53,557 nucleotides of DNA. Source: Bacteroidaceae bacterium (GTDB lineage: Bacteria > Bacteroidota > Bacteroidia > Bacteroidales > Bacteroidaceae). Positions 2,385 through 53,507 of this stretch are shown one piece after another (position 1 is the first letter of the stretch; every line of letters begins with the position of its first letter). Under the pieces are notes generated by a model, which saw nothing but the letters and a program-made list of their open reading frames with translations, was not told where the DNA came from and did no database searches. The stretch lies in assembly GCA_024401225.1 (NCBI GenBank), contig JAKSLM010000016.1, forward strand, positions 1 to 53,557. The letters are read 5' to 3'. Position numbers and translations under genes: made by a program.

Positions 2385-2392
2385 TACCTTTG
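2385..2392 (+). promoter_or_regulatory. -7 promoter box for the acyl-CoA synthetase fusion
   Basis: TACCTTTG lies 36 nt before the ATG at 2429 and argues against the longer reading that begins at 2258. Confidence 0.5.
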
Positions 2393-2428
2393 TGCCAAAA
2401 TAGAACAAGAATCATACGTATTGAACAA

Positions 2429-4936: not shown

Positions 4937-4956
4937 GCCCGTCCTTAATTGTTTTT
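4917..4956 (+). terminator. Terminator overlapping the stop codon of the synthetase fusion
   Basis: Arms 4917-4931 and 4937-4951 pair over 15 bp with one mismatch around a 5-nt loop, followed by TTTTT. The stop codon lies in the loop. Confidence 0.8.
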
Positions 4957-5008
4957 ATAAGGTATAGCCCGATGCCTCGTGACTCCGAGGCTTCGTGGCC
5001 CGTTTTGA

Positions 5009-35704: not shown

Positions 35705-35721
35705 GATTTAATATCCGATAG

Positions 35722-35794
35722 TCGGGATGACGTGACTCGAACACGCGACTCCTACGTCCCGAACGTAGTGCGCTACCAACTGCGCTACACCCCG
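35722..35794 (-). tRNA. tRNA-Pro(CGG)
   Basis: 73 nt fold into a full cloverleaf: acceptor CGGGGTG/CATCCCG with one G-U, D arm GCGC/GCGC, anticodon stem CTACG/CGTAG with loop TTCGGGA giving anticodon CGG, and a T arm with TTCGAGT. CCA is not encoded. It marks the edge between ordinary genome and the AT-rich defence island, which lies on its 5' side. Confidence 0.93.
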
Positions 35795-35850
35795 CTGCTT
35801 TCCTTGAAAGTCAACAACTTAGCAATTTTAAGTCTATTTTTCGACCTCAA

Positions 35851-35872
35851 ATTGGTGGAACATTGGTGGAAC
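35851..35872. repeat. Tandem 11-bp repeat ATTGGTGGAAC
   Basis: Two exact head-to-tail copies next to the 5' end of the tRNA gene. Such short direct repeats beside a tRNA resemble arm-type integrase sites, but no integrase gene is visible. Confidence 0.7.
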
Positions 35873-35980
35873 ATTTTGAAATGACACCCTATTTTATCCT
35901 CCACAATATCATTAACTTTCAAGAGCACTTTTGCTAAAGAAATGGACTATCATCGCTACCGCCCACACTTTTTGCAGATG

Positions 35981-36012
35981 CAAAGTTACTATTTTTTCTT
36001 GAATTACACAAA
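35981..36012 (-). promoter_or_regulatory. Strong promoter-like pair without an evident gene
   Basis: TTTG (36009-36012), 20 nt, TAACTTTG (35981-35988) on the minus strand. The next feature downstream is tRNA-Pro, about 180 nt away. Confidence 0.55.
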
Positions 36013-37706: not shown

Positions 37707-38036
37707 TTATGTTTGTTCATCCGATTTGCAGTCTTCATCCTCTGGAATCAGTGCTTTCTAGCCTTCCTCTGGTGGCAACAGTTCCTTCAGTTTGTTGAGA
37801 GTTGTCTTGTAGGTTGCAACGCCCATTGGCTTGAGATAATCCTGAAGGACATACTCAACGTATGCTTTGTTTGCCTTCTTGCACAGGATGAGACCTACTG
37901 ATGGATTCTCGTCAAGTAATCACAATTCGGTAGTCCCGACTACCGAATTAGGTATTTCAATTTTGGCAGTCACAACTGCCAAATTAAATTCTTCGTTAGC
38001 CTGCAATTCGCTAATCCGGATTAGTGAATTATCCAT
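37707..38036 (-). pseudogene. Decayed DUF1016 (YhcG-type) nuclease gene
   Basis: On the minus strand the frame reads MDNSLIRISELQANEEF and onward, stops at a TGA, then continues in the same frame with DENPSVGLILCKKANKAYV, EYVLQDYLKPMGVATYKTT and LPPEEG before a second stop. That tail is the conserved C-terminus of DUF1016 proteins, homologous to NPSIGLLLCRTKSEKK and TLRGMTQPLGVSEYE in the intact copy at 44.3-45.4 kb. The nuclease core and the N-terminal half are gone. Three AATT-bounded palindromes fill the N-terminal remnant. A recent loss in a duplicated gene is likely. Confidence 0.85.
37924..38030. repeat. Three AATT-bounded palindromes inside the DUF1016 remnant
   Basis: 37924-37949 (12-bp perfect arms), 37959-37985 (8-bp perfect core) and 38005-38030 (13-bp arms, one mismatch). 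Each is 26-27 bp and begins and ends with AATT. Arms differ in the centre (CGGTAGTC, TTGGCAGT, CGCTAATCC), so they are a family, not copies. Confidence 0.9.
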
Positions 38037-38122
38037 ATTTTTATTCTCATGACTATTGAGGGTGTATCAAGAGCATTATGACTTTTGATACACTCTCGTC
38101 TCATTTGGTCTATTGATTGTTA

Positions 38123-38734
38123 CTATAGCTTGTTTATCAAAACCTTTATTTCAAGTAGTTTGTTATCGATATTGTTGAGCATAGTAAGAATAAGAGATGT
38201 ACGCTCTGCCGAATAATCGGCAATATTATCCGTTATTTCAATATCTTTTGGTTCAGATTCGCTCGCATTTGTTTGTGTTAGAAGGTTTCTTAACTCTTTA
38301 AGATAAACTTTAAGTTGTTCATCGTTTTTGTTTAGTTCTGCATGGATTTTTCCATGAGAGTTTTCTAAGATATACTTAAAAATGCTTTTCTTTCGAGTTC
38401 TAATTCGATGTTCGAAACTGACAACTTTTTTGTAATCAATTTGTTGCCCGTTGCTGTTTTGGAATGTATTATCTAATTCTTCAAGAATTCCTTCTATTAC
38501 TCCAATTTTAGCAAGGTACATATCTTTCTCTATCCTTTTATCTTGAACTTCTTTTTCTAAAATCCATGCTATATAGATGCCCATGATAATGGTAACTATA
38601 AGGGTAATAACATCTACTATATTGAATGTGAGTTCAAGAGTACATTCCAACACTTGCCATTTATTTCCTATAATCCAACCAATAGCAAGAATTATGATTC
38701 CAAGGACTATTTCAGCGGTTGTTCTTTTGCTCAT
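38123..38734 (-). CDS. Two-helix membrane protein, last gene of the defence operon
   Basis: A 203-aa protein with transmembrane helices at about 7-24 and 38-56, then a cytosolic helical part of 140 residues with many charged residues. I know no family. Its start overlaps the DUF4325 gene by 23 nt, so it is translated in coupling with it. In defence gene sets a small membrane protein at the end often acts as the effector that damages the membrane or as an anchor for a sensor. That role is inferred from position; there is no motif to prove it. Confidence 0.75.
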   Translation of the reverse strand: MSKRTTAEIVLGIIILAIGWIIGNKWQVLECTLELTFNIVDVITLIVTIIMGIYIAWILEKEVQDKRIEKDMYLAKIGVIEGILEELDNTFQNSNGQQIDYKKVVSFEHRIRTRKKSIFKYILENSHGKIHAELNKNDEQLKVYLKELRNLLTQTNASESEPKDIEITDNIADYSAERTSLILTMLNNIDNKLLEIKVLINKL

Positions 38735-39053
38735 AGGCTTCTTTGAGATATTGGTTGATTTCTTCTATATACTCTTCATCTTCTTGCGATACAAGTTCTA
38801 ATGTTTCGAGTATTGTACTATATGCTATGTTATCTATGCGAATTAAACCGCCAAAAGCTTCTTCCAAAAAGGAAGTCCCCAAACCAGCAGTTCCATCTAA
38901 TATCACACACAATTTTTCATTAGAATCTATTGCTTCTTTCAACTTAGGGAGAAGAACTTGTGTCCTGAACTCCTGTCCAGAATGATCACCTTCCTTGGGA
39001 AATCTTGCGCCAGGAATGCGACTAAAGTCTTTTGCTATTGATATTGTTATCAT
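38712..39053 (-). CDS. DUF4325 STAS-like protein
   Basis: A 113-aa protein. EFRTQVLLPKLKEAI and KLCVILDGTAGLGTSFLEEAFGGL (residues about 29-70) are the DUF4325 signature, a STAS-like fold related to anti-sigma factor antagonists. The GTSFLEEAFGG loop is where phosphorylatable Ser or Thr lie in true STAS antagonists. It starts within the end of the GHKL gene (4-nt overlap) and overlaps the next gene by 23 nt, so the three form one translational unit. By analogy it may bind the GHKL partner as an on/off switch. Confidence 0.85.
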   Translation of the reverse strand: MITISIAKDFSRIPGARFPKEGDHSGQEFRTQVLLPKLKEAIDSNEKLCVILDGTAGLGTSFLEEAFGGLIRIDNIAYSTILETLELVSQEDEEYIEEINQYLKEAYEQKNNR

Positions 39054-40147
39054 ACGTTATTTAAATGTTTGTTGTTTTCATTAAGTTCCCAATATATATA
39101 TGTTCCTACGAATTGATTTTTGAGGGTTTTATATATATTGTTTTTACAATCAGCAAGTGCATCATTTGTAATTATTACTAAATTTGATATTTGATTATCA
39201 CTAAAAGCCTTATATACTCCTGGTAATCCTTTACCTCTATAGTAGTTACCTGTTGCTGTTTTATGAATACTTCCATCAAGAAGCAACCGCAAGAAGTCGC
39301 CATTATTTTGAGGTTTAAGGATATTGAATATTCGTGATAAGTATTTCCAGAATTTACCTTTTTCGTTCTTATTGATACTTTCAATAATTCCGACTCCGTA
39401 GTCAATAAACGAAAAACATGCTTTGTTTTTTTCTTTATTATATGAGACAGTAGTGTACCAGTGATGCTCATTTGGACCATTTAACGATGCGTGGTTGTTG
39501 GTGTTCTGCATCAATTCAAGGTATGTTCTTTGTACACCTGTACATCTTTTAGGTTCCCCCCATATCATTTTTGAAACAGTTGATATTAAACGATCTGACA
39601 AGTCAGAGTCAACCGTTTTATTTGCATGAGTAAAGATACCTTTATGACCTCGAATGGTTATTTGATCTCCACGCGTCTCATATAAGTGCTCAAAGAATCC
39701 AGAATTCAGCAGTGACATCCTTGCGCTATATTTTTTAGGATGATCACCATTGAAATCCACCATTTGGTTCTTAAATTTAATCATGATTGAAAGTAAAACA
39801 ATAATCGCTCCACTTGCAATCTTATCTACATTTTTAAGTACAACGAATACCTTTTCTCTCTTTTGCAAAGAGTGTTCCAGTGTACTTATAAACTCCAAAG
39901 TACCTTCTGGATTTTCTATCATTGATAGACACTTAGGAGCTTCTATATGCTTATAATTATGATATGCGCGTTCTATTTGTTTGGCTTGTTTCTCAATACT
40001 TAATCTTCTGCGGATTTCTTCTTTTGAGAGACCTTGCAACATACGCCTTTTCACTCTCTTGTTTTTTAGAGAGCGGACTTTCAGTCGGAATGATTTTCTA
40101 GCAATATTTGAAATTACTCTTTTTTGCTTTGCTGTTAATTTCTTCAT
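39050..40147 (-). CDS. GHKL ATPase with N-terminal STAS-like part
   Basis: A 365-aa protein. After a very basic N-terminus (residues 1-60) comes a STAS-like region (TLEFISTLEHSLQKREKVFVVL and ASGAIIVLLSIM, about 85-160). The C-terminal half is a GHKL/histidine-kinase-type ATPase: N box ELMQNTNNHA near 211-220, G1 box DYGVGI near 249-254 and G2 box GKGLPGVY near 303-310. No His phosphoacceptor (H box) is seen, so it is more like SpoIIAB/anti-sigma kinases than a sensor kinase. It begins 2 nt after the methylase gene, tying it to the restriction part of the operon. Confidence 0.82.
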   Translation of the reverse strand: MKKLTAKQKRVISNIARKSFRLKVRSLKNKRVKRRMLQGLSKEEIRRRLSIEKQAKQIERAYHNYKHIEAPKCLSMIENPEGTLEFISTLEHSLQKREKVFVVLKNVDKIASGAIIVLLSIMIKFKNQMVDFNGDHPKKYSARMSLLNSGFFEHLYETRGDQITIRGHKGIFTHANKTVDSDLSDRLISTVSKMIWGEPKRCTGVQRTYLELMQNTNNHASLNGPNEHHWYTTVSYNKEKNKACFSFIDYGVGIIESINKNEKGKFWKYLSRIFNILKPQNNGDFLRLLLDGSIHKTATGNYYRGKGLPGVYKAFSDNQISNLVIITNDALADCKNNIYKTLKNQFVGTYIYWELNENNKHLNNV

Positions 40148-40149
40148 TC

Positions 40150-43100
40150 TTATTTGTCGTAGCCAAAATTATACCATGCCTTCATAACGAGACGTTTGGT
40201 GCGGTATTCACCGTACTGGCGTATCTCGTTGTCCTTCAGCACTCGGAAGGTTTCGTTGATGCAACCTTCACCACACACATCTTCTGGGTCGAGGATGTAT
40301 CGTAACTCTTCTGTTGTCAAGCCGTAGAGGTGAGCGAAGATAGCATCAAGTTCTGCCTGCCATACTGCACGCTGATCTGGATTGTAGATGAAAGGTTCTT
40401 TCTCACGGAGCTGTGGAATAACAATTTGTTGCTCTGAAGAGAGTTCTTGGTACAACTCTTCTGCCCATTCATCAAGGTCATGATTAAAATAGCACAGTTT
40501 AATTACACGTTTAACAATCTCCCATGACATTGTCGATGATATTTGCTCTTTTTTGAGGACGGGGAATTGCTTGACAAAGAAGGTACTCATATTTATACCT
40601 CCGAGTTTCTGCCTAACCACAAAATCAAATGTCAGTGATGAAAGCATTCCTTGAAGAATTGCAATATCATATGTACTTCTTTCGCTATACATTAAGGTTA
40701 TACTATTTCCTGAACATGATTTTCTTGGCATAATTGAAGAAATAAATGTTCTACTATCTACACTTCTTGTAATTACACGAAAACCGAAGAACCAATTATG
40801 ATTCCATTTCCATAAAACTTTCCCCTTAGAATTCTTCTTGATTAATTTTCCTTCTACAACATCTTTGTCAACCCAGTACCATGATACAATAGACGATTGG
40901 GGATCTTTATACTCATTTTCTGTAGGGGAAGGTATAGCATTAGGCCTTCTATCACTAATAGGCCAGGTACCGAAATGATGATTGTACAAATAAATCATCT
41001 TTCCCTCGTACAATGGAACAAAGAATTGTTTACCCTTAAAGAAAACCCCATCCTTAAACTCATAGCCATTTTCAATTAATTGCTTGTATGTTCTAAAATA
41101 ACCAGAATCATTGGTCATATGGTACATACTTGATGTCCGATATTCCCATGGATTCTCTTCAGTAATCTCGTTTTGTAAGATTTGAGAATTCTGATATATT
41201 TTCTTTGTAATTCTTGCGTCTCGTTCAGTTCTGAATGTTGGGCATGTAGTAGTATTTGGATTTAATTTGGCTATTTCGGTAGTTTTTATTCTATATATTC
41301 GATTGGGATCTGAGAGATGATCAATTCTTGTTAAATAAAAACCACACGATACATCACGAGGCAATAATGACTTATTAGCTGCAGTTAGCAAACAGAACTT
41401 GAACATACGGTGTATATCAAACAGTCCTTCTCTATTCTCAAAATCAAATAAAGATACAAGACGATTTTCTTTTACCAGTTTGGCAAAAAAATCTTTATTT
41501 GAATCATTTGTGGCAATACCTGTAGGAATGACCATACCCCATGAATCTTTTGAAAACTCTGCGCATAGTTCAGCAAATAACAAGTATAAATCAACATCAC
41601 GGATTTCTGCACAATTAAACCTTCCACAGAAACGTACGAAGTTACTGTAGAAACCATTTTCAATCAAATCCTCACAATAAGATTTAAATAACTCGCTATC
41701 TTCAGTTTGAAGATTGTCTATCATTTTTTTTCTTTTTGAGGCGGGTGATGCATTTGCTATATCTGTACGACCATGTTTTGCAAACCATTCTTCATCCTCA
41801 ATTTTTATTTTATCCCATGGTGGATTTCCACACATAACGTCAAATCCTCCATCATAAGCAAATACGTCAGGAAATTCAATGCACCAATGGAAAAAACCAA
41901 ATTTTTTGGACATTCTTGATACTTCATGTTTGAAAGAAGCTTCTATTGGTTTATAATCAATTGTCGGATTGGTAGTTTGTTTGATTTCTTCGAGAGCTTG
42001 ATATACGGTTCTTGTGTATGGAATAGACCGGCTTATCTTAGAAATTCCTTCTACACTAAATGTCAAATCTGTTAACTTAAATTGTTTGTAAAATGCATAC
42101 GTGTAAATATCACATGCTCTTCTTAAACATTTAACTCTTGGTGAAATCATTAATGATTCCCAGCGATTTTGCTTTTGTCTTGACTCTTCCAGATTGTCTT
42201 CTGGCATTAATGAGATTTCTTTAACTAATTCTGCTAGACCAATTTGCTCTTCGCTGATTCCATACATTACATTTTCATTGTCAAATAAAGACATTTGGAC
42301 GCCTGCAATTTGCGCATCTTTTAGCATCTTAACATCTTTAAGTGCTTCTGCGTTTAAATTCTTGATAGCCTTTAGCGACTCTTTGCTATCTGCAGAAAAT
42401 GCCTCGTTTGGAACTCCGTCAAGAAGCATGTCAAGATCTGTTACACCAACTACGGAGTTACCGCAACGAATATGATGGTCAAGGAATGACAGAGGCTTGC
42501 CAGCACAATAACCTTCAATCCAAAGCACCACCTTACACAGTTCTACAGCATCAGGATTGTAATCGACTGCATAGACACACTTCTGAATAACGTCACGAAG
42601 AGCCTCACGGTAATCAAGTGATGCAGGATTATCTTCACCGGTGCGGATGGTGCAGACATACCATGCAATAGTACGAGCCATAGCAAGAACGATATGACCA
42701 GAACCACTGGCAGCATCGCACACCTTCATGTTAAGGAGAGTTTTAACCTTCTCTTCCTTAGTGGCGCATGAAGCTATCTTCTCTTCAACAACAGGGATGA
42801 GGGTTGTCTTGATAAGACTCTGAACGAGGTCAGGACGAGTGTAGTAACTACTCGTACTCTGGCGATCGAGACCACCAACAAAGCCGAAGTCCCAGTTAGG
42901 CGCTTCCATTCCCTTTGTTATGAATGGACGCTTCTCCAATATTCCCTCATAGACAGAACCAAACTCCTCAACGTCGAGAGAGGAATAATTTATCTTCACT
43001 CTCTGTCCTTTTTCATCAGTAAACTCGTTGAGGGCAGCAAAGGCTGTAAGCAGAGAATCGTTGCTGATTCTGCAATCCTTAAGATAGTGAAGCGTATCAC

Positions 43101-44259
43101 TATCGAACAGTACACCTCCAAGAGGCTTGATGCCAAGCGGTTCACCAAACTTTTCATTCTCAAAAAGTCGGAAAGTGTCCATCAATCCCTGCCAAAGGTC
43201 GAAATAATGACGTTGGCGAAGATACATGAGCTCACTCTTCTTGCGAAGACGGGTAGCGGCATAGTACTGTTTATATATTTCCTGAAGTTTGCACAGACGT
43301 TTATAGTCCTCATGCTCAGGAGCAGGAATCTGATATACGAGTCCTCTTTCTTCAATGATGAAAAGGAATAGGAGTCGGTAGATGAAGTGTATCAGTTCTT
43401 TGTTAAGTTCTACAGCGGAGAATCTTCCGTCAAGTAAAGCATTGCGTAATGCTTCATTTCCTTCACCATTACCCCTTACAGCTGCACGACCGATTGTTTC
43501 CATGGTACGCTGGACAGCCATAGAAAGACCGTTGCGAATACGGTTGCCACTCTCGATGCTCATGTTGAAGTAACGTTCCATGATGCACTGTTCGTCACCG
43601 CTGACACGGAAACGAGTAGCATGGAGCAGTCGGAACATAAGGCAGAACTCCGTATATTTGTCCTCTTCAAGCATACGCTGGAGGTCAAACTCAATGTATG
43701 TCAACTTGACCAACTGTCCGGTATTGCGAAGAATACGCAGTACGCGACCATTTGCAACAATGCCATAGACATTCTCAGTGTTGTTGAGATACTCCAGCAT
43801 AGTTGCATGAGGTGACTTCTTACGCATAGCACCTTTGGCACGATAATCCAGAGAACACTTGTCAAGGGTGTCTATATCAGCATCACCAGTCTTATCCCCG
43901 ATAACGATGATAGGCAGATTCTTCAAATCCTGGCAGATATGAGAAATCTCAAATGAAGAGCCATTAACTAGTGTGCTTGAGGTTTGGCGTGTCAGTTCAT
44001 AGCCAAGGCAAGAGAACAGGCGTTCCATCAGTTCACGAGAACGTCTGGTACCATAAGGATCGCCAGCAGCGCTACGCTCATTGAAGAACTTCCAATCGTT
44101 GCGGAAACTACTCCAAACATAGTCAATAGTATGCTGTACAGGAGCATCAAGACCAAAGTCCTGCTCGCTGTTACCCTTCAAGGTGTTGTCCGTCTCTATG
44201 CTGTGCAGTATGTCATCAGAGAGGAAATGATCGTATATATGTATGCTTGTATATTCCAT
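40150..44259 (-). CDS. Eco57I/PglX-like class I adenine-specific DNA methylase
   Basis: A 1369-aa methylase. SAM-binding motif I is KVCDAASGSGHIVLA near 511-525, just after the YYTRPDLV entry motif near 465-472, and the catalytic motif IV is CGNPPWDK near 809-816. The type and size match PglX of BREX, DrmMI of DISARM and type IIG Eco57I enzymes. A separate nuclease domain is not obvious in the N-terminus. It likely marks host DNA (N6-adenine) as self. The region from about residue 636 to 1213, which has motif IV and the target-recognition part, is much poorer in G+C than the rest of the gene, a sign of segmental exchange. Confidence 0.9.
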   Translation of the reverse strand: MEYTSIHIYDHFLSDDILHSIETDNTLKGNSEQDFGLDAPVQHTIDYVWSSFRNDWKFFNERSAAGDPYGTRRSRELMERLFSCLGYELTRQTSSTLVNGSSFEISHICQDLKNLPIIVIGDKTGDADIDTLDKCSLDYRAKGAMRKKSPHATMLEYLNNTENVYGIVANGRVLRILRNTGQLVKLTYIEFDLQRMLEEDKYTEFCLMFRLLHATRFRVSGDEQCIMERYFNMSIESGNRIRNGLSMAVQRTMETIGRAAVRGNGEGNEALRNALLDGRFSAVELNKELIHFIYRLLFLFIIEERGLVYQIPAPEHEDYKRLCKLQEIYKQYYAATRLRKKSELMYLRQRHYFDLWQGLMDTFRLFENEKFGEPLGIKPLGGVLFDSDTLHYLKDCRISNDSLLTAFAALNEFTDEKGQRVKINYSSLDVEEFGSVYEGILEKRPFITKGMEAPNWDFGFVGGLDRQSTSSYYTRPDLVQSLIKTTLIPVVEEKIASCATKEEKVKTLLNMKVCDAASGSGHIVLAMARTIAWYVCTIRTGEDNPASLDYREALRDVIQKCVYAVDYNPDAVELCKVVLWIEGYCAGKPLSFLDHHIRCGNSVVGVTDLDMLLDGVPNEAFSADSKESLKAIKNLNAEALKDVKMLKDAQIAGVQMSLFDNENVMYGISEEQIGLAELVKEISLMPEDNLEESRQKQNRWESLMISPRVKCLRRACDIYTYAFYKQFKLTDLTFSVEGISKISRSIPYTRTVYQALEEIKQTTNPTIDYKPIEASFKHEVSRMSKKFGFFHWCIEFPDVFAYDGGFDVMCGNPPWDKIKIEDEEWFAKHGRTDIANASPASKRKKMIDNLQTEDSELFKSYCEDLIENGFYSNFVRFCGRFNCAEIRDVDLYLLFAELCAEFSKDSWGMVIPTGIATNDSNKDFFAKLVKENRLVSLFDFENREGLFDIHRMFKFCLLTAANKSLLPRDVSCGFYLTRIDHLSDPNRIYRIKTTEIAKLNPNTTTCPTFRTERDARITKKIYQNSQILQNEITEENPWEYRTSSMYHMTNDSGYFRTYKQLIENGYEFKDGVFFKGKQFFVPLYEGKMIYLYNHHFGTWPISDRRPNAIPSPTENEYKDPQSSIVSWYWVDKDVVEGKLIKKNSKGKVLWKWNHNWFFGFRVITRSVDSRTFISSIMPRKSCSGNSITLMYSERSTYDIAILQGMLSSLTFDFVVRQKLGGINMSTFFVKQFPVLKKEQISSTMSWEIVKRVIKLCYFNHDLDEWAEELYQELSSEQQIVIPQLREKEPFIYNPDQRAVWQAELDAIFAHLYGLTTEELRYILDPEDVCGEGCINETFRVLKDNEIRQYGEYRTKRLVMKAWYNFGYDK

Positions 44260-44265
44260 AGGGAT

Positions 44266-45435
44266 TTATTTGGTGGAGTTGTCGGAAAGCTCGGAATTAT
44301 CCTTTGTTGACGTTTCCGTTTCGTTTTCAATTTCCTCGATAGTAGGAATGCTGGAGCGTATAGAGTCTGCAATTCTTTGCGTTTCATACTCACTGACTCC
44401 AAGAGGCTGAGTCATTCCACGAAGAGTATATCTTACTTTCTTCTCGCTCTTTGTACGACACAAGAGCAGACCGATTGAAGGATTGTCTTCAGGAGTCTTG
44501 ATGAAATCATCAATAAGTGAAACGTAATAGTTGAGTTTGCTGACATATTCAGGTTTGAACTCTGTTGTCTTGAGTTCTATACCTACATAACGATGTTGCT
44601 TCAGATGATACATCAGCAAGTCAATGATTGCTTCATCATCCTCAGGGTCGAGATGCACCTGATGCCCTACGTATGCAAAACCACGTCCCATCTCAGTAAG
44701 GAATTCAGTGATTTTCCTTACAAGTTGGTTTTCAAAATCAGTCTCACGCTTTACCGTGGACATATCTACAAAACCGAGATTGTAAGGGTCTTTGAACATC
44801 TGGACCACGAGGTCAGAGTCAGGAGCGGGTAAAGTCGTATGGAAATTGTTAATGGCTGTGCCCTGTCTGTGATAGAGATCGCTGTCAACCTGCAAGAGCA
44901 TTATATCCCTTGACCAACCTTCCTGCGCAGTCTTTATGATGTAGAAAGCCCGTTCATCATCAGACAGATTCTTTGACAACAAGGAAATATGATGATACCA
45001 TGTTATTTGTGCTAATGGCAGTTGCATGAACTGTTCTCCAGCTTTCTCCAGAAGAGCAGGCATATTTGCAGATGCCTGTGGTAATTCGGCAAGCGTGGCT
45101 TGCCAAATTGACTTGTCTCGTATTTTGGCAAGTGGCACTTGCCAAAATGGGAAATCGGGATAAGACTCCGCAAAGCGCTTCATACTGCGCAGGTTACGTT
45201 CAGAATAGCCACTATCATTGCCAAACTCTCTAATCAAATCCTCTGACAGCATCTTTATGACACCAGTCCCCCATCCCTGCTCTTCTTGTTTGCGTATAAT
45301 CTCTCTTCCCAAAGAGAAGTAATGAGCCAGATTAGAGGCATTAAGCTGCATGACGGCTTTCATCCTCATCTTGCGTATGCTCAGGATGATTTCATTGCGC
45401 CATTCTTTATATGTATTTACTGATATTTCTTTCAT
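44266..45435 (-). CDS. DUF1016 (YhcG) PD-(D/E)XK nuclease
   Basis: A 389-aa protein. The N-terminal half (RIVRKQEEQGWGTGVI-like segment EIIRKQEEQGWGTGVIKM, then LSEDLIREFG and SERNLRSMKRFAESYPDF) is the DUF1016 helical domain. The C-terminal half is a PD-(D/E)XK nuclease with IIDLLMYH near 268-275 and VGIELKTTEF near 282-291; Asp and the ELK triad lie there. Between them, residues about 95-120 come from two in-frame palindromes (WQVPLAK and WQATLAE). Proteins of this family are often found with restriction or toxin genes. It lies 6 nt before the methylase gene in the operon. Confidence 0.9.
   Translation of the reverse strand: MKEISVNTYKEWRNEIILSIRKMRMKAVMQLNASNLAHYFSLGREIIRKQEEQGWGTGVIKMLSEDLIREFGNDSGYSERNLRSMKRFAESYPDFPFWQVPLAKIRDKSIWQATLAELPQASANMPALLEKAGEQFMQLPLAQITWYHHISLLSKNLSDDERAFYIIKTAQEGWSRDIMLLQVDSDLYHRQGTAINNFHTTLPAPDSDLVVQMFKDPYNLGFVDMSTVKRETDFENQLVRKITEFLTEMGRGFAYVGHQVHLDPEDDEAIIDLLMYHLKQHRYVGIELKTTEFKPEYVSKLNYYVSLIDDFIKTPEDNPSIGLLLCRTKSEKKVRYTLRGMTQPLGVSEYETQRIADSIRSSIPTIEEIENETETSTKDNSELSDNSTK
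45083..45148. repeat. Two AATT-type palindromes inside the intact DUF1016 gene
   Basis: 45083-45109 (12-bp arms, one mismatch, 3-nt centre) and 45122-45148 (13-bp perfect arms around one base). Both are 27 bp and are read in frame as IWQATLAEL and FWQVPLAKI. Confidence 0.9.
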
Positions 45436-45440
45436 TTGGA

Positions 45441-48320
45441 TTAACCGATTTTGGGGATGAATACGTATGCAGCTATGACATCCATAGGCAGTACAGGTTC
45501 TACGACCTGGTACTCAGATGCTTTCAAGTATGTGCGATACTTAGTGAATGCTTCCACCAAGTGTGACGCACGTTCCATAGCTATGTCATCAGTGTGAAGT
45601 CGAAGAGTTGCTTCGTCGTTTGCCCATTCCGTTGCACGAGTAAGAATGTTCTTCTGAGCTGCAATATCTACACTGCCAGAAGCCTGTGCGTTAAGAAACA
45701 GTTCGCGTGATTCTTCCTGTGAGAGAAAATCGTGATCTTCGATTTTTCCACGATAACCTATGAATATCATTTCTTCTCCAACAAGTTCGCGTTCAGTGAT
45801 TTTTTTATCCCTGATAACACTACGGACACGCATAAGAAGGATTGACGTTCTCTTCTTTACTTCTGATGTTTCCATCACCATAGCACGGCAAGCAGCCAAA
45901 TCACCGCCATTGATAGAGTCATTTACAACTCCTCGTGACAGATCTTCTACGAAGGTATGGTTACGACCAATATACATGTAGTGCTTTGGTGTAGGTGAGG
46001 CAAAGGATATGCGCACAAGTCCTTTGCTGTTCGCTACATCCTTGAAATAATGCCTTAGTCCTGCAGGAAGGTCAAGCAATTGGAAACTATAGCATAACGG
46101 TGCATCATGCTTTACGTTTACCTCGGCATTCTCCAACTGAGAAATAACGAAACGGCATGTATCATCAACTCCACCAATGACATTTCTTGCTTCATTAAGT
46201 GTCGTTGTGAGACGAGTAGGATCCATCTGCCTTGTGTTGTGGGCAAAATAGGTATGAGAAAGTTTCTCGTTCTCAACCATCTTCTTCAACTGAATCTCAC
46301 GTTCTTCCTCCTGCTGCCGCAACCATTCCGTATCATTGTCAAACAGGGATAGCTGCATGTAGTCAGATTGTGTAGGAGCCTTAGCATCGAAGATTCGCTG
46401 CATAATGGTTTCCATGAGGGTTTCATCATTATCAGCGATAGGCAGATATACACCAAGACGCTTACGGATTTCCTCTTGTTTCTTGTAAAGGATATTGAGG
46501 ACTATATCGTCAACAGGATTGTTCTTTGCATGAAGTGTAGAGATAAGCACCTCATTGGCAGTCTGACCGAAACGGTCAATACGTCCATTACGTTGCTCCA
46601 TACGGTTAGGGTTCCAAGGGAGATCATAATGGATAACCGCCTCGAATCCTTGCTGAAGGTTGACTCCTTCTGAAAGGCAGTCTGTACAAACGAGTACATG
46701 ACGTTCTTCCTTTGCAAGAATATCAATCTTCATCTTGCGCTCTTCGTCAGACAAGCGGCTCGTAATAGTGTCAACGACAACTTTCTTAAGTTTCTTGTCT
46801 TTAGAGAGTTGTTCTGCAATATACTTTCCAACATATTCAGCTGTTTGGATATACTGACAGAACACAATAGGGTTCATGCCACTGTTGAGAGAAGCTTTTA
46901 CCACATTGAAAGCCTGTTTGACTTTCTCGTCAGTATCGGTTTCCTTGATATGTTCAAGAGTACGAATAAACTCCTTGAACTTCTGTTTGTCATCAGCAGC
47001 AACCTTCTCCAGAGCATCAGGCATGACATCGTCAGAGTTAAGCAAGTCCTTCAGGTGGTCATTGAAAGAATATACCTTATCTGTAGTATCATCTGTTTCT
47101 GAATCAGAAGAATCGGATGCCTTGTCTATTTTGTTCTGCAACATACTGATACCTGCATCAGGACTCGACATTACACCTCGCATGAGAGCGAGGAGATCCC
47201 AATAGATATAGCGTTGCTTGCGCTTATCTTCACCTTTTACGAGTTCAAGACCACTCTTGATGTACTTGATAATACTTCCAAGGAGATTGTGATATTCAGG
47301 CTTATATGAGTATTCATCACCATCAATCATAACACGCTCAGGGAAAACAACTTCATTTCCGAGATATTGCTTGATGTCTGCACGGCGACGCTGCACAAAG
47401 TATTGTGAAAGTTCCTCACGCTCCTTTGCTGTTTCAAGGCTGTAGTGCTCAAACTTAGGATTAAGCAGTCCTATGAGTGACTGAAATTCCTCAGTCTGAC
47501 CACTATGAGGGGTAGCAGTAAGGAGCACCATCTGCTGACTAGGTTTCTCTGATAGGTCTTTGAGAAGTCGATAACGCTGTTGTTGATATTTCGTTCCACC
47601 TGCAGGTCTTGCACAAGTATGTGCTTCATCAACAATAACAAAGTCGGGGCAATGGTCGAGGAATATATTGCGACGATTGTCCTGTTTGATATAGTCTATT
47701 GATATTACCTGGAATGGAATATCTCGGAATATGTTCTGGTCGGCACGAAGTTTCTTCTCCAATCTGCTGACTGTAGAAGATCGAATGATCTCTGCATCAA
47801 GTCCGAACTTATCTTTTATTTCATTCTGCCATTGCTCACAAAGATGCGGAAGACAGACAACTGCAAAGCGGTTAATCTCTCCACGGTCAAGAAGTTCTTT
47901 GGCAATAAGAAGTGATTCCAATGTCTTGCCAATACCTACGTCATCAGAGATAAGCAAGCGTATTTTCTCTTGCTTAAGGGCAAGAATGAGAGGAACCATC
48001 TGATATGGGCGCGGTTCAAACGAGAGTCTGCCAAGGCACTGGAATGGTCCGGCTATGTCACGGAATGACAGGCGGCAAGCATTGTAAAGTATCTGTGCAG
48101 CAGACTTATAGCTATACTTGTTTATATCGTCAACGGATGGACGGCGGAAATTATAAGACTTTATATCAAGGTTATCACCATAAAGGGGACGAAAAAGACC
48201 AATGGTCTCTGCATCTGTTCCTCCCAAAGGCTTGATGACAAGAAGTTCGTCGTTCTCGGATTGATGTACAACCCAAGGACGATTACGAAATTCTACGAGT
48301 GTGCCGGTTTTGAAATCCAT
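45441..48320 (-). CDS. SNF2/RapA-like helicase (DrmD-like)
   Basis: A 959-aa ATP-dependent DNA translocase. An N-terminal small beta part (MDFKTGTLVEFRNRPWVV) precedes the SNF2 motor: Walker A SDDVGIGKT near 124-132, the DEAH box VDEAH near 226-230, LLTATPHSG near 270, and the C-terminal motor with QRNGRIDRFGQ near 574-584. Length and layout match DrmD of class 1 DISARM and other defence-linked SNF2 proteins. No nuclease motif is evident. It lies 9 nt after the large helicase gene and 5 nt before DUF1016 in the operon. Confidence 0.9.
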   Translation of the reverse strand: MDFKTGTLVEFRNRPWVVHQSENDELLVIKPLGGTDAETIGLFRPLYGDNLDIKSYNFRRPSVDDINKYSYKSAAQILYNACRLSFRDIAGPFQCLGRLSFEPRPYQMVPLILALKQEKIRLLISDDVGIGKTLESLLIAKELLDRGEINRFAVVCLPHLCEQWQNEIKDKFGLDAEIIRSSTVSRLEKKLRADQNIFRDIPFQVISIDYIKQDNRRNIFLDHCPDFVIVDEAHTCARPAGGTKYQQQRYRLLKDLSEKPSQQMVLLTATPHSGQTEEFQSLIGLLNPKFEHYSLETAKEREELSQYFVQRRRADIKQYLGNEVVFPERVMIDGDEYSYKPEYHNLLGSIIKYIKSGLELVKGEDKRKQRYIYWDLLALMRGVMSSPDAGISMLQNKIDKASDSSDSETDDTTDKVYSFNDHLKDLLNSDDVMPDALEKVAADDKQKFKEFIRTLEHIKETDTDEKVKQAFNVVKASLNSGMNPIVFCQYIQTAEYVGKYIAEQLSKDKKLKKVVVDTITSRLSDEERKMKIDILAKEERHVLVCTDCLSEGVNLQQGFEAVIHYDLPWNPNRMEQRNGRIDRFGQTANEVLISTLHAKNNPVDDIVLNILYKKQEEIRKRLGVYLPIADNDETLMETIMQRIFDAKAPTQSDYMQLSLFDNDTEWLRQQEEEREIQLKKMVENEKLSHTYFAHNTRQMDPTRLTTTLNEARNVIGGVDDTCRFVISQLENAEVNVKHDAPLCYSFQLLDLPAGLRHYFKDVANSKGLVRISFASPTPKHYMYIGRNHTFVEDLSRGVVNDSINGGDLAACRAMVMETSEVKKRTSILLMRVRSVIRDKKITERELVGEEMIFIGYRGKIEDHDFLSQEESRELFLNAQASGSVDIAAQKNILTRATEWANDEATLRLHTDDIAMERASHLVEAFTKYRTYLKASEYQVVEPVLPMDVIAAYVFIPKIG

Positions 48321-48329
48321 ATTTGCTAA

Positions 48330-51300
48330 TTAGTTTACCGGAGTGAATATATCAGGGTGACTGTTGATGAACTCTTCAAGAGGTGTTGCGTAATGCCAGG
48401 CAAGTACAACGAAACCTGCATCTTCGAGAACTTCACGTTTGTGGCGGTCATCTTCTTGAACTTCTGGGCGGTCATGTGGAGTGCCATCACAGAATATGAC
48501 AATGCGATTGCCATACATAAAGTCTGGCTGTACATAGTATTCGTCAGGGAACATCGGTTGCGCCTTGTCTGGAAGACGTAAACGATGATCATGAAGATAC
48601 TTTAAGAACTCATATTCTGTCGAACTGTTGTGGTCACGCTCTGCTTCAAGAATACGATACTGCTCATCATAGCTTGTCTCAACACCTGCATGATGTACCT
48701 CTACGGTAGCCTGTTGCATTATCTTCAATGCAGAGTATATCTTGCGAATATCTATCTCCGGATGGAAAGGTTGATTATAGTAATTGAGCAAATTACTGTA
48801 GTCTGCCGGAGTCAGACTATTCAGTTCATCTGGCGTAAGATCTTTCTTCTTACCAAAGCATATCTCATAAGCTCTTGCAACGACCTCACGGTATGAGTCT
48901 GGCTCCTTAACTAGTCTGTCAAGTACACCAAGTGAACCTTCTGCATTCTCATAGATGAATACATTCGGAACATTACCTTCACCCATAACATCTGCACCGA
49001 TTTCACTTCCTTCTACTTGGAATACATCCTCTATAGCTTGCTTGAAAGCATACAAGAATGTGCGAACAGCTCCCTTATCTTGTAAGAGGAGAGCTTGCAA
49101 TGGCTGAATATAGATTGCATTGGCAGTAGTTTCAGTAAACAGTTTGACGAATTTTACATTTTCTGCTTTTTCTGAATGTTGTTCTTGTTCGGTTCGAATC
49201 TTCGCCAAATCATTATTACTTATCCAAATTCCTGTTTTTGTGTCAAAAGCAAAACCATTGCTGCTATCATCATTGCGTGATTCGAGGATGTAAGTAATAC
49301 GGCATGATGGAATATAGCGTATGTTTGCAAGATGCTGACCGTTACTCTTCAGTTCCATCTCATGAATGGTACGAGGGTCATCACTGGAGAAGAAGGTCTT
49401 TGTCTGATAGTATTTGCGATTACGCTCTTCTTCCTGACAAGTGATCTTCTCCCGTTCTGTAGCAACCATGTCTTGCGCCTGTATGCAAGTTCCCGGAATC
49501 AGTTTAGCCAAGCCATCAAGGGATTCTCCTGTTATTATGTCAGTATGGTGTTCGCTACTCTCCTGATCCTTATAGACGACACCAGTCTTCGGATTGTAGA
49601 AGAATTTGTGGCTAAGAGGATCTTGGGTAAGTAACATACGGCTGATACGGAACTTTCCTCCATTGTTGTATATAATGTTCTGCGGTCCAAACTCACTTAA
49701 GGCAAGTGACTTTGGACGGCTGAGAAACTCAACGGCATCACTCTTATACTGGAGCATGGCACGCTGAGGGAGTTTTGTAAAGTTGTAACCTGGAAGGAAT
49801 CCTTCACTGGCAAGGTAACGATAAGGGTAGAACTCATTTTCTTCCCTGTTCTTACCTTGATTTACTCCAAGAAGCATGTCACGCTGATTCTCACCACGAG
49901 CCTGACGCATGTGTGCATCACGCTTCTCCTGAGAACTTTCACCGTATGTACGATCATTGATGATACGGCTTGCTTCCTCTATCTGAGTCTGAGCTTGCTT
50001 ATAAAGGGCACGCCAACGGTCAAGTGAATGGTCAAAATCATTTTCATATGAATTTAGGATGTTATCTATCCATGTATCTGTAAACCAACGAGGAGATTCT
50101 GACTCCATCCTTTCAGAAAGGAAGGTATCTGACATTACCTTCTTGAAAACATCTTTGATTTCTTGCTTACGTTCTACTGATAGTCTAAGATGAATACGAA
50201 CTTCGTCAAGCAACGTGATATTGTTGATGTCACTGTAGTCAACAAGTTTTGATACACCATCAGACAGTTGAGGGATTGGGCAGAGTGACAAGATGGTTGA
50301 ATGAAGGTGTGTGCGGAACAGTTCTTCATTTACCAATTCCATACGTGGTGCCTTTACTTCACCCTTAACCATCTTCTCTGGATTGTGAAGATAGAAATTC
50401 TCGTGTGAGTTACGAGGACGGCAATATGTATAGACAAGTGCTGCCTGACCACTACGTCCAGCACGACCTGCACGCTGTGTATAGTTGGCAGGAGTTGGTG
50501 GTACGTTACGCATACCTACAACTGACAAATCCTTTATATCAATACCAAGCTCCATTGTAGGGGAACAGTATAAAACAGGGAACTTTCCTTCGCGGAACTC
50601 CTGTTCACGCAATTCACGTTCTTCCTTTTGTACTTGACCTGTATGGTCTTTCGCTTCAAGATTAACAGAGCCAAGAGGTATGTTCTGGTAGAAATTCTGG
50701 AAGTATCGGTTTGGATGATAGACAAGTTGATCGTATTCAGCGAGTACCCTGATACGAGTCATATCACGACGTTGAGTCTCTTTGTCACCAGCTTCCCATA
50801 ATACAGAACCATAGTCTAACTGATAAGTCCCGTCACCATTGTCAATGATATAGTTCTCCAAGACATGGAAGAGTCGCTTCATGTAATCAATGTATGCTTC
50901 TTCACTGCCAAGAGGAATGTTTACGTTATGCTTGTTGAGGTAATCTTTTACAAATGTTGCGAGTTTACTCCTATAGCCACCGCTTTCAAGGTTGAAATCG
51001 TTTCTGCGACGTGGCTTGACAAGGAAAAGTTCATGATAAGTGTCTATCCTGTCGTTTTCATCAAGAGTCCAAGGTTTCTTGAGATTATCACGAATAGCCT
51101 TCATTGTATCTTTTACTTCTCCTTCCTTTCGGTCTGGTGTATAGATACAAAGTTTGTGACGGAAGAAGTCAAGAATCTGAATAATGAATTCTTCTTTTTC
51201 TTCGTCATTGAGTCCTTCTAATTCTTCAACATCGTAAAGACGGTCAGAATCATTGTCGCCAGTTATCTCGTCATGAAGATATTTATAGTTGATGTTCAGA

Positions 51301-53507
51301 AGAGCGCAATCTTCAAGGTTTGGCATTATGACCGTCCAGTTTCCAGCAAGATCATCAAAGATAATAGTGGAAAGATACTTCACCATAATATCTTTGATGT
51401 CGTCTGCACGTCTTCCCTTTACCTCACGCTGAGAGTATTCAGCAAATGGAAGATGAAGATTTTCAAAAACGAGACGGGCTATCTTTGTGCTATCAATAGG
51501 TTCTGTCGTATCTTTGAGTGCATTCCATATAGCTGAACGTATCTTTCCTATGCGGATAAAGTCATTGAAATGACCTGCTTGTAGCGCTGCATCCTGTCGG
51601 GCATCAACAAACGTCATTACCTTACGGTCTTTCTCTTCGACACCCATCTGTTGCATGAGTATGATGTCTTCGTATGACAAGACCGTTGTTGCAGTACTTC
51701 TACCTTCACCGCCAATCTTTGCAAGTTTTGACCATTCTGATTGTTTACCTTTGAATACAGCAAGGGATGTAGGATCAAACTTTAGCGGTGATGGAACATA
51801 TACTGCCTCAAAGTATTCGTAACCCTCAAAGACAGACTCAAAAGAATATGAACCATCTGTACGGACAAATATTTTACGAGGCAGACGCTCCTGATAGTTC
51901 TTCTTAAGTTTACGTTCGCCTTTTCTGTTTACAGTGAACCATTCTTCCGGTAATTCCTCAGAGTTCTCATCAAACATATAGTCATCTGCAGTCTCATTCT
52001 CATGTGGAAGAATAATGTAACCGCTATTCACGTCACCTTCATCCTCAGTCACAACACGCCCATCAAAACTACGTGGTACGAGTCTTTGAGCTCCAGTTTC
52101 AAGACTTATTACATAGAACTCATGACCGCTAAGACGGCTAAAGACAAGAGGATAGTACATAATCTTAATGTCGCCATGTGACAAATCCTCGCAGTAAAGT
52201 TTCTCTTCTACTGTGATACGACGATTTGTCGTACTTCCTATTGTTGCATATACATTACCGGTCTGAGGGATAAACTGATGTACCTTGTATGGAAGGATAT
52301 GCGTACCCTTCCCTATGTTGATTCTGTTACACCAATCAAGAACTTCGAGAATATGATTCTGGCACTTAGTTATCTCAATGCCAATCTTGACACTGAGCTT
52401 GCCTGCCATATCTTCTATCGTTATAGGATTGCCACGGAAGTACTTATGCTCCTTTCTTACATAGTTAAGGGCAATTTCTTGTTCTATCCATATAGCAGTA
52501 GGATATGACACCGCCATATTCTCGTCAATATCCAAAGGTACACCAGTGTTTATTGCATTCCTAAGTTCTGCATCAGAAGGTTCGTCTTCTTTCAGACCTA
52601 TGCTGAGGGTTTCATCAATAACTTGATCTTTGGTGTATGTACTGCCAAATATACATGAAGCAACCTCTGCAACCTTTTCTTTCTGTTGTCCATAAGTCAT
52701 GGTCTCATCTGCAACCATTGTAGCAGATGTACCAAAGCAAAGTACTTTGCCAGCAGCCTGAGCTTTGATACGACGAATAAGGAATGAAACGTCACTTCCT
52801 TGCATTCCACGATACGTATGCAATTCATCAAACACAAGGAAATGGAGATTTTCAAGGAAACAGTTTCTAAGTGACTGCTCACTTCCTGCACGAGTCATGA
52901 GAAGTTCCAGCATCATATAGTTGGTCAAAATGATGTTGGGAGGATTCAGCTGCATCTTGGTACGAGCTTCATCATTCTCCTGTCCTGTGTATTTACCGAA
53001 AGTAAAAGGTGACTTACGACCAGTTTTTTCTTCAAACGCATCTTTGTAACGGTTCAATTCTTCCCACTGAGAATTGATAAGAGCATTCATTGGATATACA
53101 ATGATAGCTACAGTCTTATTCTCACACTCATCCTCATGGTTGAGTATGTAATTGAAGATTGTAGCCATGAATGTACGAGATTTACCTGATCCCGTACCAG
53201 AGGTTACGATAAACTCTTTATCCTGACATCCTAATTCTATTGCTTCTTGTTGATGCTTGTAGAATGATGTAGCAAAGAATAACTCAAGGTCTTTGTGTAT
53301 AGGAAGCCCATTAGCAATCATTTCCTTAACTCCAACTCCCTTTTCGAAGTTAGGGTTAAATTGAATGAGTGCTTTAGGCCATAATTTCTCTGTTCGGATG
53401 GCATCATTAACTTCATCCTCAATACGCTTATCCTTAATAGTGACAAAACTTTCGAGGTATGATTTATAGCTGTCCTTCAGTTTATCGTAAAGTCCAATGA
53501 TATTCAT
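48330..53507 (-). CDS. DEAH helicase with DUF1998-like region and C-terminal nuclease-like domain
   Basis: A 1725-aa protein. The first motor has TSGTGSGKS at 102-110 and the DELH box near 228 (LVFDELHTYRG); after a long insert, the second motor shows YCSPTMELGIDIKDL and QRAGRAGRSG near 1010-1019, as in MrfA, DruE and DrmB helicases. A DUF1998-like segment follows (LLYAL-type run FLYAFKQAIEDVFQVEG, then EGSLGVLDRLV, near 1490-1560), but the usual Cys cluster is missing: the place reads DYSNLLNYYNQPFHPEID. The last 90 residues look like a Vsr/DUF559-type PD-(D/E)XK fold (EYEFLKYL, YYVQPDFMY, IVIFCDGTPHD). It heads the operon; the promoter is near or beyond the right end. Its start MNIIGLYDKLKDSYK looks natural. 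Confidence 0.88.
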   Translation of the reverse strand: MNIIGLYDKLKDSYKSYLESFVTIKDKRIEDEVNDAIRTEKLWPKALIQFNPNFEKGVGVKEMIANGLPIHKDLELFFATSFYKHQQEAIELGCQDKEFIVTSGTGSGKSRTFMATIFNYILNHEDECENKTVAIIVYPMNALINSQWEELNRYKDAFEEKTGRKSPFTFGKYTGQENDEARTKMQLNPPNIILTNYMMLELLMTRAGSEQSLRNCFLENLHFLVFDELHTYRGMQGSDVSFLIRRIKAQAAGKVLCFGTSATMVADETMTYGQQKEKVAEVASCIFGSTYTKDQVIDETLSIGLKEDEPSDAELRNAINTGVPLDIDENMAVSYPTAIWIEQEIALNYVRKEHKYFRGNPITIEDMAGKLSVKIGIEITKCQNHILEVLDWCNRINIGKGTHILPYKVHQFIPQTGNVYATIGSTTNRRITVEEKLYCEDLSHGDIKIMYYPLVFSRLSGHEFYVISLETGAQRLVPRSFDGRVVTEDEGDVNSGYIILPHENETADDYMFDENSEELPEEWFTVNRKGERKLKKNYQERLPRKIFVRTDGSYSFESVFEGYEYFEAVYVPSPLKFDPTSLAVFKGKQSEWSKLAKIGGEGRSTATTVLSYEDIILMQQMGVEEKDRKVMTFVDARQDAALQAGHFNDFIRIGKIRSAIWNALKDTTEPIDSTKIARLVFENLHLPFAEYSQREVKGRRADDIKDIMVKYLSTIIFDDLAGNWTVIMPNLEDCALLNINYKYLHDEITGDNDSDRLYDVEELEGLNDEEKEEFIIQILDFFRHKLCIYTPDRKEGEVKDTMKAIRDNLKKPWTLDENDRIDTYHELFLVKPRRRNDFNLESGGYRSKLATFVKDYLNKHNVNIPLGSEEAYIDYMKRLFHVLENYIIDNGDGTYQLDYGSVLWEAGDKETQRRDMTRIRVLAEYDQLVYHPNRYFQNFYQNIPLGSVNLEAKDHTGQVQKEERELREQEFREGKFPVLYCSPTMELGIDIKDLSVVGMRNVPPTPANYTQRAGRAGRSGQAALVYTYCRPRNSHENFYLHNPEKMVKGEVKAPRMELVNEELFRTHLHSTILSLCPIPQLSDGVSKLVDYSDINNITLLDEVRIHLRLSVERKQEIKDVFKKVMSDTFLSERMESESPRWFTDTWIDNILNSYENDFDHSLDRWRALYKQAQTQIEEASRIINDRTYGESSQEKRDAHMRQARGENQRDMLLGVNQGKNREENEFYPYRYLASEGFLPGYNFTKLPQRAMLQYKSDAVEFLSRPKSLALSEFGPQNIIYNNGGKFRISRMLLTQDPLSHKFFYNPKTGVVYKDQESSEHHTDIITGESLDGLAKLIPGTCIQAQDMVATEREKITCQEEERNRKYYQTKTFFSSDDPRTIHEMELKSNGQHLANIRYIPSCRITYILESRNDDSSNGFAFDTKTGIWISNNDLAKIRTEQEQHSEKAENVKFVKLFTETTANAIYIQPLQALLLQDKGAVRTFLYAFKQAIEDVFQVEGSEIGADVMGEGNVPNVFIYENAEGSLGVLDRLVKEPDSYREVVARAYEICFGKKKDLTPDELNSLTPADYSNLLNYYNQPFHPEIDIRKIYSALKIMQQATVEVHHAGVETSYDEQYRILEAERDHNSSTEYEFLKYLHDHRLRLPDKAQPMFPDEYYVQPDFMYGNRIVIFCDGTPHDRPEVQEDDRHKREVLEDAGFVVLAWHYATPLEEFINSHPDIFTPVN

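Follow-up and report, generated by a model that had tools for sequence, protein, structure and literature searches.

Do seven closely packed, defence-like genes form one system, or have several systems come to share one operon? The question is raised by a minus-strand operon on contig JAKSLM010000016.1 of a Bacteroidaceae bacterium (GCA_024401225.1), a stretch of 53,557 nucleotides (nt), hereafter the window, which is the complete contig. The listing of its open reading frames (ORFs) holds all seven genes (proteins P1-P7) on the minus strand, from 53507 down to 38123, and their coordinates give gaps of 9, 5, 6 and 2 nt in order, then overlaps of 4 and 23 nt. An earlier reading of the DNA, made without database searches (the sequence-only reading), had described this packing correctly and had taken the genes for one set belonging to no named system. 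Our analysis partly supports that interpretation. Genes 1, 2 and 4 match the core of a known system, ARMADA Type I, in set and order, gene 3 is an insertion into this core, and genes 5-7 make up a cassette of a predicted kinase, a STAS protein and a membrane protein. Because co-occurrence of these parts is lacking in the loci compared, we regard the seven genes as two modules brought together, one of them with a YhcG gene inserted. The reading that we propose, and to which we give about an even chance of being right, is a two-tier phage-defence operon that joins ARMADA DNA attack to a portable kinase-STAS-membrane cassette.

The product of gene 1 is a helicase with a putative nuclease-like tail, as described earlier: Pfam finds DEAD and Helicase_C domains, and a DUF559 match to the tail falls below the cut-off (E 0.0042). 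The Pfam model of DUF1998, the family suggested earlier, is not among the gene 1 matches at E 0.01. Relatives at E 1e-40 or better are present in 30 of 395 genomes of the phylum, its own included, and more than 1,500 residues are matched in 22 of the 29 others; we assign the protein to the YprA family because of these full-length relatives. Its best PADLOC model is DruE3 (258 bits). A PDF and CDG..HD pattern is conserved in the tail across a 15-row alignment, and no relative of the tail was found in PDB. Gene 2 has an SNF2 match in Pfam, its best PADLOC model is DpdE, and the NCBIfam DrmD model matches below its cut-off; membership in Dpd was rejected, since the scores are weak or partial only. 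Gene 4 matches Eco57I in Pfam (E 3.7e-16) as well as the DrmMI and type IIG models of PADLOC. The SNF2 and Eco57I/PglX assignments of the sequence-only reading, together with its calls of DUF1016 for gene 3 and DUF4325 for gene 6, are thus borne out by Pfam. Gene 2 aligns with ArmA of Escherichia coli ARMADA II (27% identity over 535 positions, E 4e-46) and gene 4 with E. coli ArmB (23% identity, E 2e-22). The E. coli references (ArmA, ArmB, ArmC, DruE and DruH) come from ATCC 8739 and were labelled ARMADA II or Druantia III following the strain description in the main text of a preprint by Bell et al. (2025; PMC12458937).

The main text of this preprint describes ARMADA Type I as a YprA helicase, a BrxHII-like helicase and a PglX-like methylase, usually in this order, with a YprA protein that ends in a Vsr-type nuclease, and it reports a reversed gene order for some Type I systems. 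BrxA-like, beta-barrel zinc and MarR-like insertions are further features of the type. Genes 1, 2 and 4 match this order, with gene 3 in between, and are alike in gene set and probably in the nuclease-like tail; the window differs by its DUF1016/YhcG gene before the methylase and its three-gene cassette behind it. The terms YhcG, DUF1016, GHKL and STAS do not occur in the main text of PMC12458937, to which our search was confined. The order of ARMADA Type II (BrxHII, PglX, YprA and a RelE-GajB-like helicase) is a different one, and no GajB-like gene is found among the seven.

This arrangement is not peculiar to the window. We fetched 22 phylum loci of gene 1 relatives, 20 of which show all three core genes; the other two (L040 and L054) end in or past gene 2. 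The YprA-SNF2-methylase order was found in 17 of the 20, counting two in which genes are incomplete (in L047 a contig end truncates gene 1; in L059 gene 1 is split over two frames and gene 4 is truncated), and the reversed order in three (L050, L052 and L055). The window order also occurs in all five plasmid loci examined, out of 71 plasmid records matched: two from Burkholderiaceae and one each from Roseomonas, a Chloroflexota bacterium (with extra genes) and Rhodococcus. In a maximum-likelihood tree of 25 YprA proteins, the window falls with order-matched loci in a 14-row clade that has 100/100 support and includes neither ArmC nor DruE of E. coli. The tree holds one ArmC (ARMADA II) and one DruE as references and leaves out the preprint's own Type I reference; the window branch is long, and its position within the clade is tentative. 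The loci in reversed order (L050/L135, L052/L137 and L055/L136) form a separate YprA clade in which SNF2 and methylase genes stand upstream of the YprA gene, and the L050 methylase bears a strong DUF559 domain (E 1.5e-36).

Gene 3 is a DUF1016/YhcG nuclease gene with both domains (YhcG_C E 2.6e-50 and DUF1016_N E 8e-32 in Pfam; PADLOC PDC-S02 E 3.5e-122). By phmmer it has no relative at E 1e-3 among the ORFs of the compared loci (L036-L093 and L097), and elsewhere the slot between helicase 2 and the methylase is occupied by a Fic protein (L036), a 336-aa protein without an assigned family (L037) or a four-helix-bundle protein (L131). We conclude that gene 3 is an insertion into the ARMADA core. 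Downstream of gene 7, a broken DUF1016/YhcG C-terminal fragment (37803-37913, minus strand) has 40.5% identity to gene 3 over 37 aa and is apparently a relic of a second YhcG gene.

The last three genes part company with the core in both directions of comparison. Profiles of genes 5 and 6 were run on 27 ARMADA-type loci (22 phylum and 5 plasmid, the phylum flanks reaching mostly 1.4-5.9 kb behind the methylase), and the gene 5-6 family was found in none of them within these flanks, a single weak gene 5 match (L038, E 1e-5) being discussed below. Conversely, no gene-1 relative at E 1e-10 was found in the flanks of the 32 cassette loci scanned, of which L065, L061 and L082 are each shorter than 9 kb in total; L062 has an SNF2 match to gene 2. 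In this sample the last three genes do not co-occur with the core, contrary to the earlier view of a single seven-gene set, and for the core a named system exists, ARMADA Type I.

What, then, is the cassette? A single profile scan of genome contigs with gene 5 gave 32 loci, and L097 brings the number outside the window to 33. They are spread over about nine phyla (Bacteroidota, Fibrobacterota (Chitinispirillia), Acidobacteriota, Omnitrophota, Pseudomonadota, Spirochaetota, Latescibacterota, Paceibacterota and UBP6, as the record titles indicate). In all 33 loci with a flank, gene 5 is succeeded by gene 6 on its own strand, and a third ORF comes next; by mechanically called ORF starts, the gap between genes 5 and 6 ranges from -101 to +18 nt, with an overlap in 23 of 33. 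From these counts L093, where the contig ends in gene 5, is left out for gene order, L084 for the transmembrane scan and L079, with gene 5 in two frames, for the gene 5 alignment; L077, L086 and L090 duplicate L056, L057 and L058, and each of these places enters the counts a single time. The cassette is uncommon: a sequence search with gene 5 found it in 4 of 296 phylum genomes and the profile in 6 of 395, one of these being a weak partial match; weak partial matches occur in G053 and G086. Searching plasmids with gene 7 and a phage collection with gene 5 gave nothing, and one IMG/VR locus has gene 5 where its contig stops. The sole plasmid match of gene 5, left out of all counts, is a stand-alone set of kinase, STAS-like and third genes on a Leptospira interrogans plasmid (L127, 6971-8799), which lies beside a nucleotidyltransferase/HepT pair.

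All three proteins have conserved features. Gene 5 has no Pfam family at E 0.01 and no relative in PDB; among its homologues the Lys/Arg-rich N-terminal tail has a median of 61 residues with 21 K+R and 4 D+E, and in a 33-row alignment the GHKL ATPase residues N215, D249, G251, G253 and G307 are present in all rows and E211 in 32. Gene 6 is a DUF4325 member (Pfam E 6.5e-9). By hydropathy, third-gene proteins show transmembrane peaks in 33 of 33 scanned, window included (two in 26 and one in 7); the peaks of gene 7 start from residues 5 and 28, in keeping with the two-helix membrane protein seen earlier, and the gene matches no PADLOC, Pfam or NCBIfam family at E 0.01.

The nearest described relatives of this arrangement are CapK-CapS and VapKSC. 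As presented in the main text of Chambers et al. (2026; PMC13373217), in both of these a STAS-GHKL kinase phosphorylates a STAS protein, thereby freeing a promoter or the VapC toxin; a need for single-stranded DNA (ssDNA) is shown for CapK and proposed for VapK; and capKS lies directly behind a restriction-modification system in 88 of 443 cases. For comparison we used three VapK/VapS pairs obtained through VapS similarity, from an unannotated phage record, a Deinococcus plasmid and a streptococcal phage; the VapK proteins were picked as neighbours of VapS, and Escherichia VapK is not in the set. The VapS set matches solved VapS at E 2e-18, and the third gene of the Deinococcus locus matches solved VapC at E 1e-8; the third ORF of the phage record has a sub-threshold PIN match only and no PDB relative, and the streptococcal pair has no annotated PIN gene. 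On a Leptotrichia plasmid, searches with VapS fragments also gave a short gene of the DUF4325 family; scanning viral sequences with VapK gave nothing.

With this set, P5 and VapK align across the STAS and GHKL domains (hhalign probability 97.2, E 3.4e-11, with a score of 83.2 where 100 column-shuffles reach at most 22.5); the STAS-like part earlier ascribed to the GHKL protein is confirmed. P6 and VapS align likewise (probability 94.7, E 5.7e-8, score 50.6 against a maximum of 17.8 in as many shuffles), and the four cross-pairs score far below both. Against PDB, the gene 6 family profile has VapS (9z7o) on top at E 0.11. VapS S48, which we take to be chain residue 66 on the assumption that a tag accounts for 18 extra residues, falls opposite P6 residue 60, a Ser or Thr in 31 of 34 sequences; residue 61 is Ser in 33 of 34, and the window has T60/S61. 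P5 and P6 are thus remote homologues of VapK and VapS, and the cassette is a variant of the CapKS/VapKSC kind with a predicted transmembrane protein in the place of VapC. It resembles VapKSC in its three packed genes, which encode in this order a STAS-GHKL kinase, a STAS switch and a putative effector, and differs from it, as described in the main text of PMC13373217, in its third gene, where no VapC-like PIN nuclease is found, and in the additional basic tail of P5. With CapK-CapS it shares the STAS-GHKL kinase, the STAS substrate and the frequent position next to restriction-modification genes; in that text CapK has a helix-turn-helix, CapS a winged helix-turn-helix, and both precede the operon that they control, whereas the window cassette comes last and neither gene 5 nor gene 6 has a Pfam domain of either type. 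The word 'transmembrane' is absent from the main text of PMC13373217, and we found no description of a membrane branch of the kinase-STAS switch in listings of open-licence PMC papers. A Shedu protein with a GHKL domain, as portrayed in part of PMC12137116, was set aside as another architecture.

The neighbours of the cassette point to DNA-targeting defence. We called linkage tight where the nearest upstream ORF of at least 90 aa is co-directional and within 100 nt. This applies to 13 places, namely 12 of the 33 loci and the window, leaving aside L079, whose upstream neighbour is its own broken frame; in nine of the 13 a DNA-targeting operon of one of seven classes stands upstream (Table 1). 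The other four tight neighbours are genes without an assigned family (L068 and L097), an S24/HTH repressor (L078) and an SLFN-like gene in an AAA-containing cluster (L081). Restriction genes also lie nearby in other orientation, of Type I in L063 and L079 and of Type ISP in L064. Altogether, family scans place a DNA-targeting system in the flank in at least 12 of 33 places (the window and 32 loci), which is a lower bound because only chosen neighbours were scanned. With PADLOC, 90 of 141 neighbours and 90 of 151 control proteins gave 256 and 62 matched families, respectively, a pooled difference of little weight, as CRISPR genes occur at one of the control loci. Of the 25 families listed for each side, those for the neighbours include restriction and methylase families and those for the control do not.

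A second ARMADA locus bears on the association of core and switch. Behind the methylase of L038 lies a 284-aa STAS-GHKL protein, the weak gene 5 match mentioned above, which has no PDB relative. By hhalign it aligns at 89% with both the P5 and the VapK profile; its score is 48.8, where shuffles reach at most 23.6 and 21.0. It is followed by a 205-aa CapS-like protein that matches solved CapS (PDB 9Z71) at E 1e-7. The STAS-GHKL protein represents a different, CapK-like branch. The genes behind the pair include a JAB-like gene, assigned by eye, and one for a DUF1508 protein, which we take to be of the YegP family; they are a candidate Bub-type operon under a kinase-STAS switch. YegP-like genes stand behind 57 capKS pairs according to the main text of PMC13373217. 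With the window and L038 taken together, ARMADA cores would have kinase-STAS switches from two branches, whose outputs differ. The L038 switch supports a coupling of such switches to ARMADA, and also the regulatory explanation considered below.

In the two-tier reading, genes 1, 2 and 4 would form the first tier, a DNA-attack machine of ARMADA Type I whose methylase would mark self DNA, with the putative Vsr-like nuclease tail of helicase 1 and the added YhcG nuclease as supplements. The P5 kinase would stay at rest until a nucleic-acid danger signal reaches it, in all likelihood DNA ends or single strands that come from phage replication or from the enzymes encoded upstream. It would then phosphorylate P6 at T60 or S61, phosphorylated P6 would release P7, to which it is presumed to bind, and the freed P7 would halt the cell by membrane damage or growth arrest. 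More broadly, the cassette could be a third, undescribed branch of CapKS/VapKSC, a plug-in, membrane-acting fuse at the 3' end of at least seven classes of DNA-targeting defence, in which DNA damage from failing or firing restriction would trigger the membrane effector and whose kind ARMADA would have taken up twice; for this generalization we see the scales as evenly balanced. If true, it would join the direct, non-abortive DNA attack of ARMADA with ssDNA-activated STAS kinases acting as damage switches, and the presence of one cassette behind many restriction systems would account for the coupling of front-line cutting with a membrane response as the last resort. The cassette is a small and easily tested module, and the locus cautions that whole operons should not be named as one system where their parts are swappable.

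Several observations weigh against this reading. The defence role of locus and cassette is a prediction. P7 is of no known family, and position, not a match to the gene 7 profile, identified the third gene in 7 of the 33 loci. The window P6 as a single sequence fails to find VapS in PDB, and because of this and the E value of the profile match there, its kinship to VapS rests on profile-profile comparison. At residue 109 of P5, which aligns with the invariant Trp of the three VapK proteins, none of the 33 sequences has an aromatic, and the ssDNA-stacking aromatic of CapK/VapK was not located in P5; the P5 ligand may for this reason differ from ssDNA. In this comparison we presume the invariant Trp to be the stacking residue of PMC13373217. 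With regard to the neighbourhoods, 21 of the 33 loci (L079 included) have no co-directional neighbour within 100 nt upstream, and the enrichment for restriction is modest: family scans of chosen neighbours score 12 of 33 places and a protein panel scores 1 of 19 random phylum loci (p 0.018), two unlike methods. When the same panel is applied on both sides and self-hits are removed, the figures are 9 of 32 against 1 of 19 (p 0.07), two of the nine being matches to a methylase-RadC fusion. The control is small, 19 random phylum loci whose sole match is PglZ-like, and the panel was built from cassette loci. Finally, the lower guanine-cytosine (GC) content of genes 5-7 fits an origin separate from that of genes 1-3, and the co-function of the cassette with ARMADA is presumed.

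The same 21 loci suit a different explanation, namely that the cassette is an independent toxin-antitoxin-like passenger at operon ends, unrelated to its partner system. Its base composition is unlike that of the core, and its two closest relatives by gene 5, L061 (67% identity) and L062 (64%), adjoin quite different systems. We nevertheless consider it unlikely, given that most of the tightly linked cassettes (9 of 13) have a DNA-targeting defence operon as partner, of seven classes in all, and that in L038 a related switch stands behind ARMADA again. The cassette might instead be a regulator like CapK-CapS, with P5 phosphorylating P6 so that the adjacent defence operon is switched in its expression or its activity, and with P7 as a membrane anchor or a sensor feeding P5. 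CapK-CapS, the best-studied relative, controls immune operons (PMC13373217, main text), a CapK-CapS-like pair does occur behind the ARMADA core of L038, and P7, predicted to be membrane-bound, could sense envelope stress. Yet P6 has only 113 aa and no match to a DNA-binding family, unlike the STAS-wHTH protein CapS, and the cassette closes its operon, the next minus-strand ORF of at least 80 aa past gene 7 being 443 nt away. Its order of kinase, STAS protein and third gene copies that of VapKSC, in which the third gene is a toxin according to the main text of PMC13373217 (an example is L125). A regulatory role appears distinctly unlikely to us.

A single seven-gene machine, as a variant of DISARM or Druantia, is highly improbable. 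It is suggested by the DrmD-, DrmA-, DrmMI- and DruE-like scores: in common with class 1 DISARM the operon has a DrmD-like helicase and a DrmMI-like methylase, and in common with Druantia III a YprA/DruE-like helicase. These scores are low or partial. The NCBIfam matches are below cut-off (DrmD, 324 bits against 610), the matches of genes 1 and 2 to DrmA models are weak or of the kind that any helicase would give, DruE of E. coli lies outside the clade of gene 1, and among the seven genes there is no drmB or drmC match and none to E. coli DruH at E 1. The sequence-only reading was right that the locus is neither plain DISARM nor Druantia. A single seven-gene system of any kind was rejected for want of co-occurrence, genes 5-7 having no family members in the 27 ARMADA-type loci within their flanks.

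Table 1. Features of the operon in the window, genes at the rear of locus L038, and DNA-targeting genes tightly linked to the cassette
Feature	Position	Strand	Description
gene 1 (P1)	48330..53507	-	1725 aa; YprA-family helicase, ARMADA Type I-like; putative C-terminal Vsr/DUF559-like tail
gene 2 (P2)	45441..48320	-	959 aa; SNF2/BrxHII/RapA-like helicase
gene 3 (P3)	44266..45435	-	389 aa; DUF1016/YhcG PD-(D/E)xK nuclease; accessory gene inserted after helicase 2, ahead of the methylase
gene 4 (P4)	40150..44259	-	1369 aa; Eco57I/PglX-like adenine methylase
gene 5 (P5)	39050..40147	-	365 aa; basic N-terminal tail, STAS-like domain and GHKL ATPase; remote homologue of kinase VapK
gene 6 (P6)	38712..39053	-	113 aa; DUF4325 STAS-like switch protein; remote homologue of antitoxin VapS
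gene 7 (P7)	38123..38734	-	203 aa; small membrane protein, two predicted N-terminal transmembrane segments and soluble remainder; putative effector
17-bp inverted repeat	38057..38098	.	25 nt past gene 7; terminator-like score in + direction only
L038 rear genes	947-5304		behind ARMADA methylase: CapK-like, CapS-like, DUF1508, ThiF, JAB-like genes
L067	upstream of cassette		Type I, HsdS
L075	upstream of cassette		Type I operon, HsdR
L072	upstream of cassette		Type II, Eco57I methylase behind AccI
L082	upstream of cassette		Type II, HpaII endonuclease and methylase; 133-aa gene between
L062	upstream of cassette		Type III Mod and Res
L089	upstream of cassette		BREX-like, DUF6079-methylase-PglZ; 234-aa gene between
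L076	upstream of cassette		Shedu-like, SduA
L061	upstream of cassette		Dnd-restriction-like, DndD/DndH-like genes; transposase between
window	upstream of cassette		ARMADA

The borders of the operon are less sharply drawn than its genes. Gene 1 starts 50 nt from the contig end, past which there may be an additional upstream gene, and the inverted repeat after gene 7 is a possible operon end. Between 37600 and 53557, promoter-like sites (47 against a chance mean of 43.6) and terminator-like sites (8 against 9.5) show no excess. The next minus-strand ORF past the operon (36159-37679) is of low GC, encodes 506 aa and has no Pfam match; a comparison with the ORFs of L036-L093 and L097 gave no relative of it at E 1. 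The GC content is 0.32-0.37 in genes 5-7, 0.41-0.43 in genes 1-3 and 0.50 in the contig from 20000 to 35700, a pattern that fits a lower-GC island from at least two sources. Within the methylase gene, the C-terminal part (40150-41739) has a GC content of 0.36 against 0.43 in the N-terminal part, as though the target-recognition half had been swapped. A tRNA-Pro gene at 35721-36000 marks the border at which the GC content falls from about 0.48 to 0.35; as the island is situated 5' of the tRNA, ordinary 3'-end integration at this gene is not obvious. Elsewhere on the contig, a second GC dip contains an abortive infection gene of the Abi_2 family (12142-13041).

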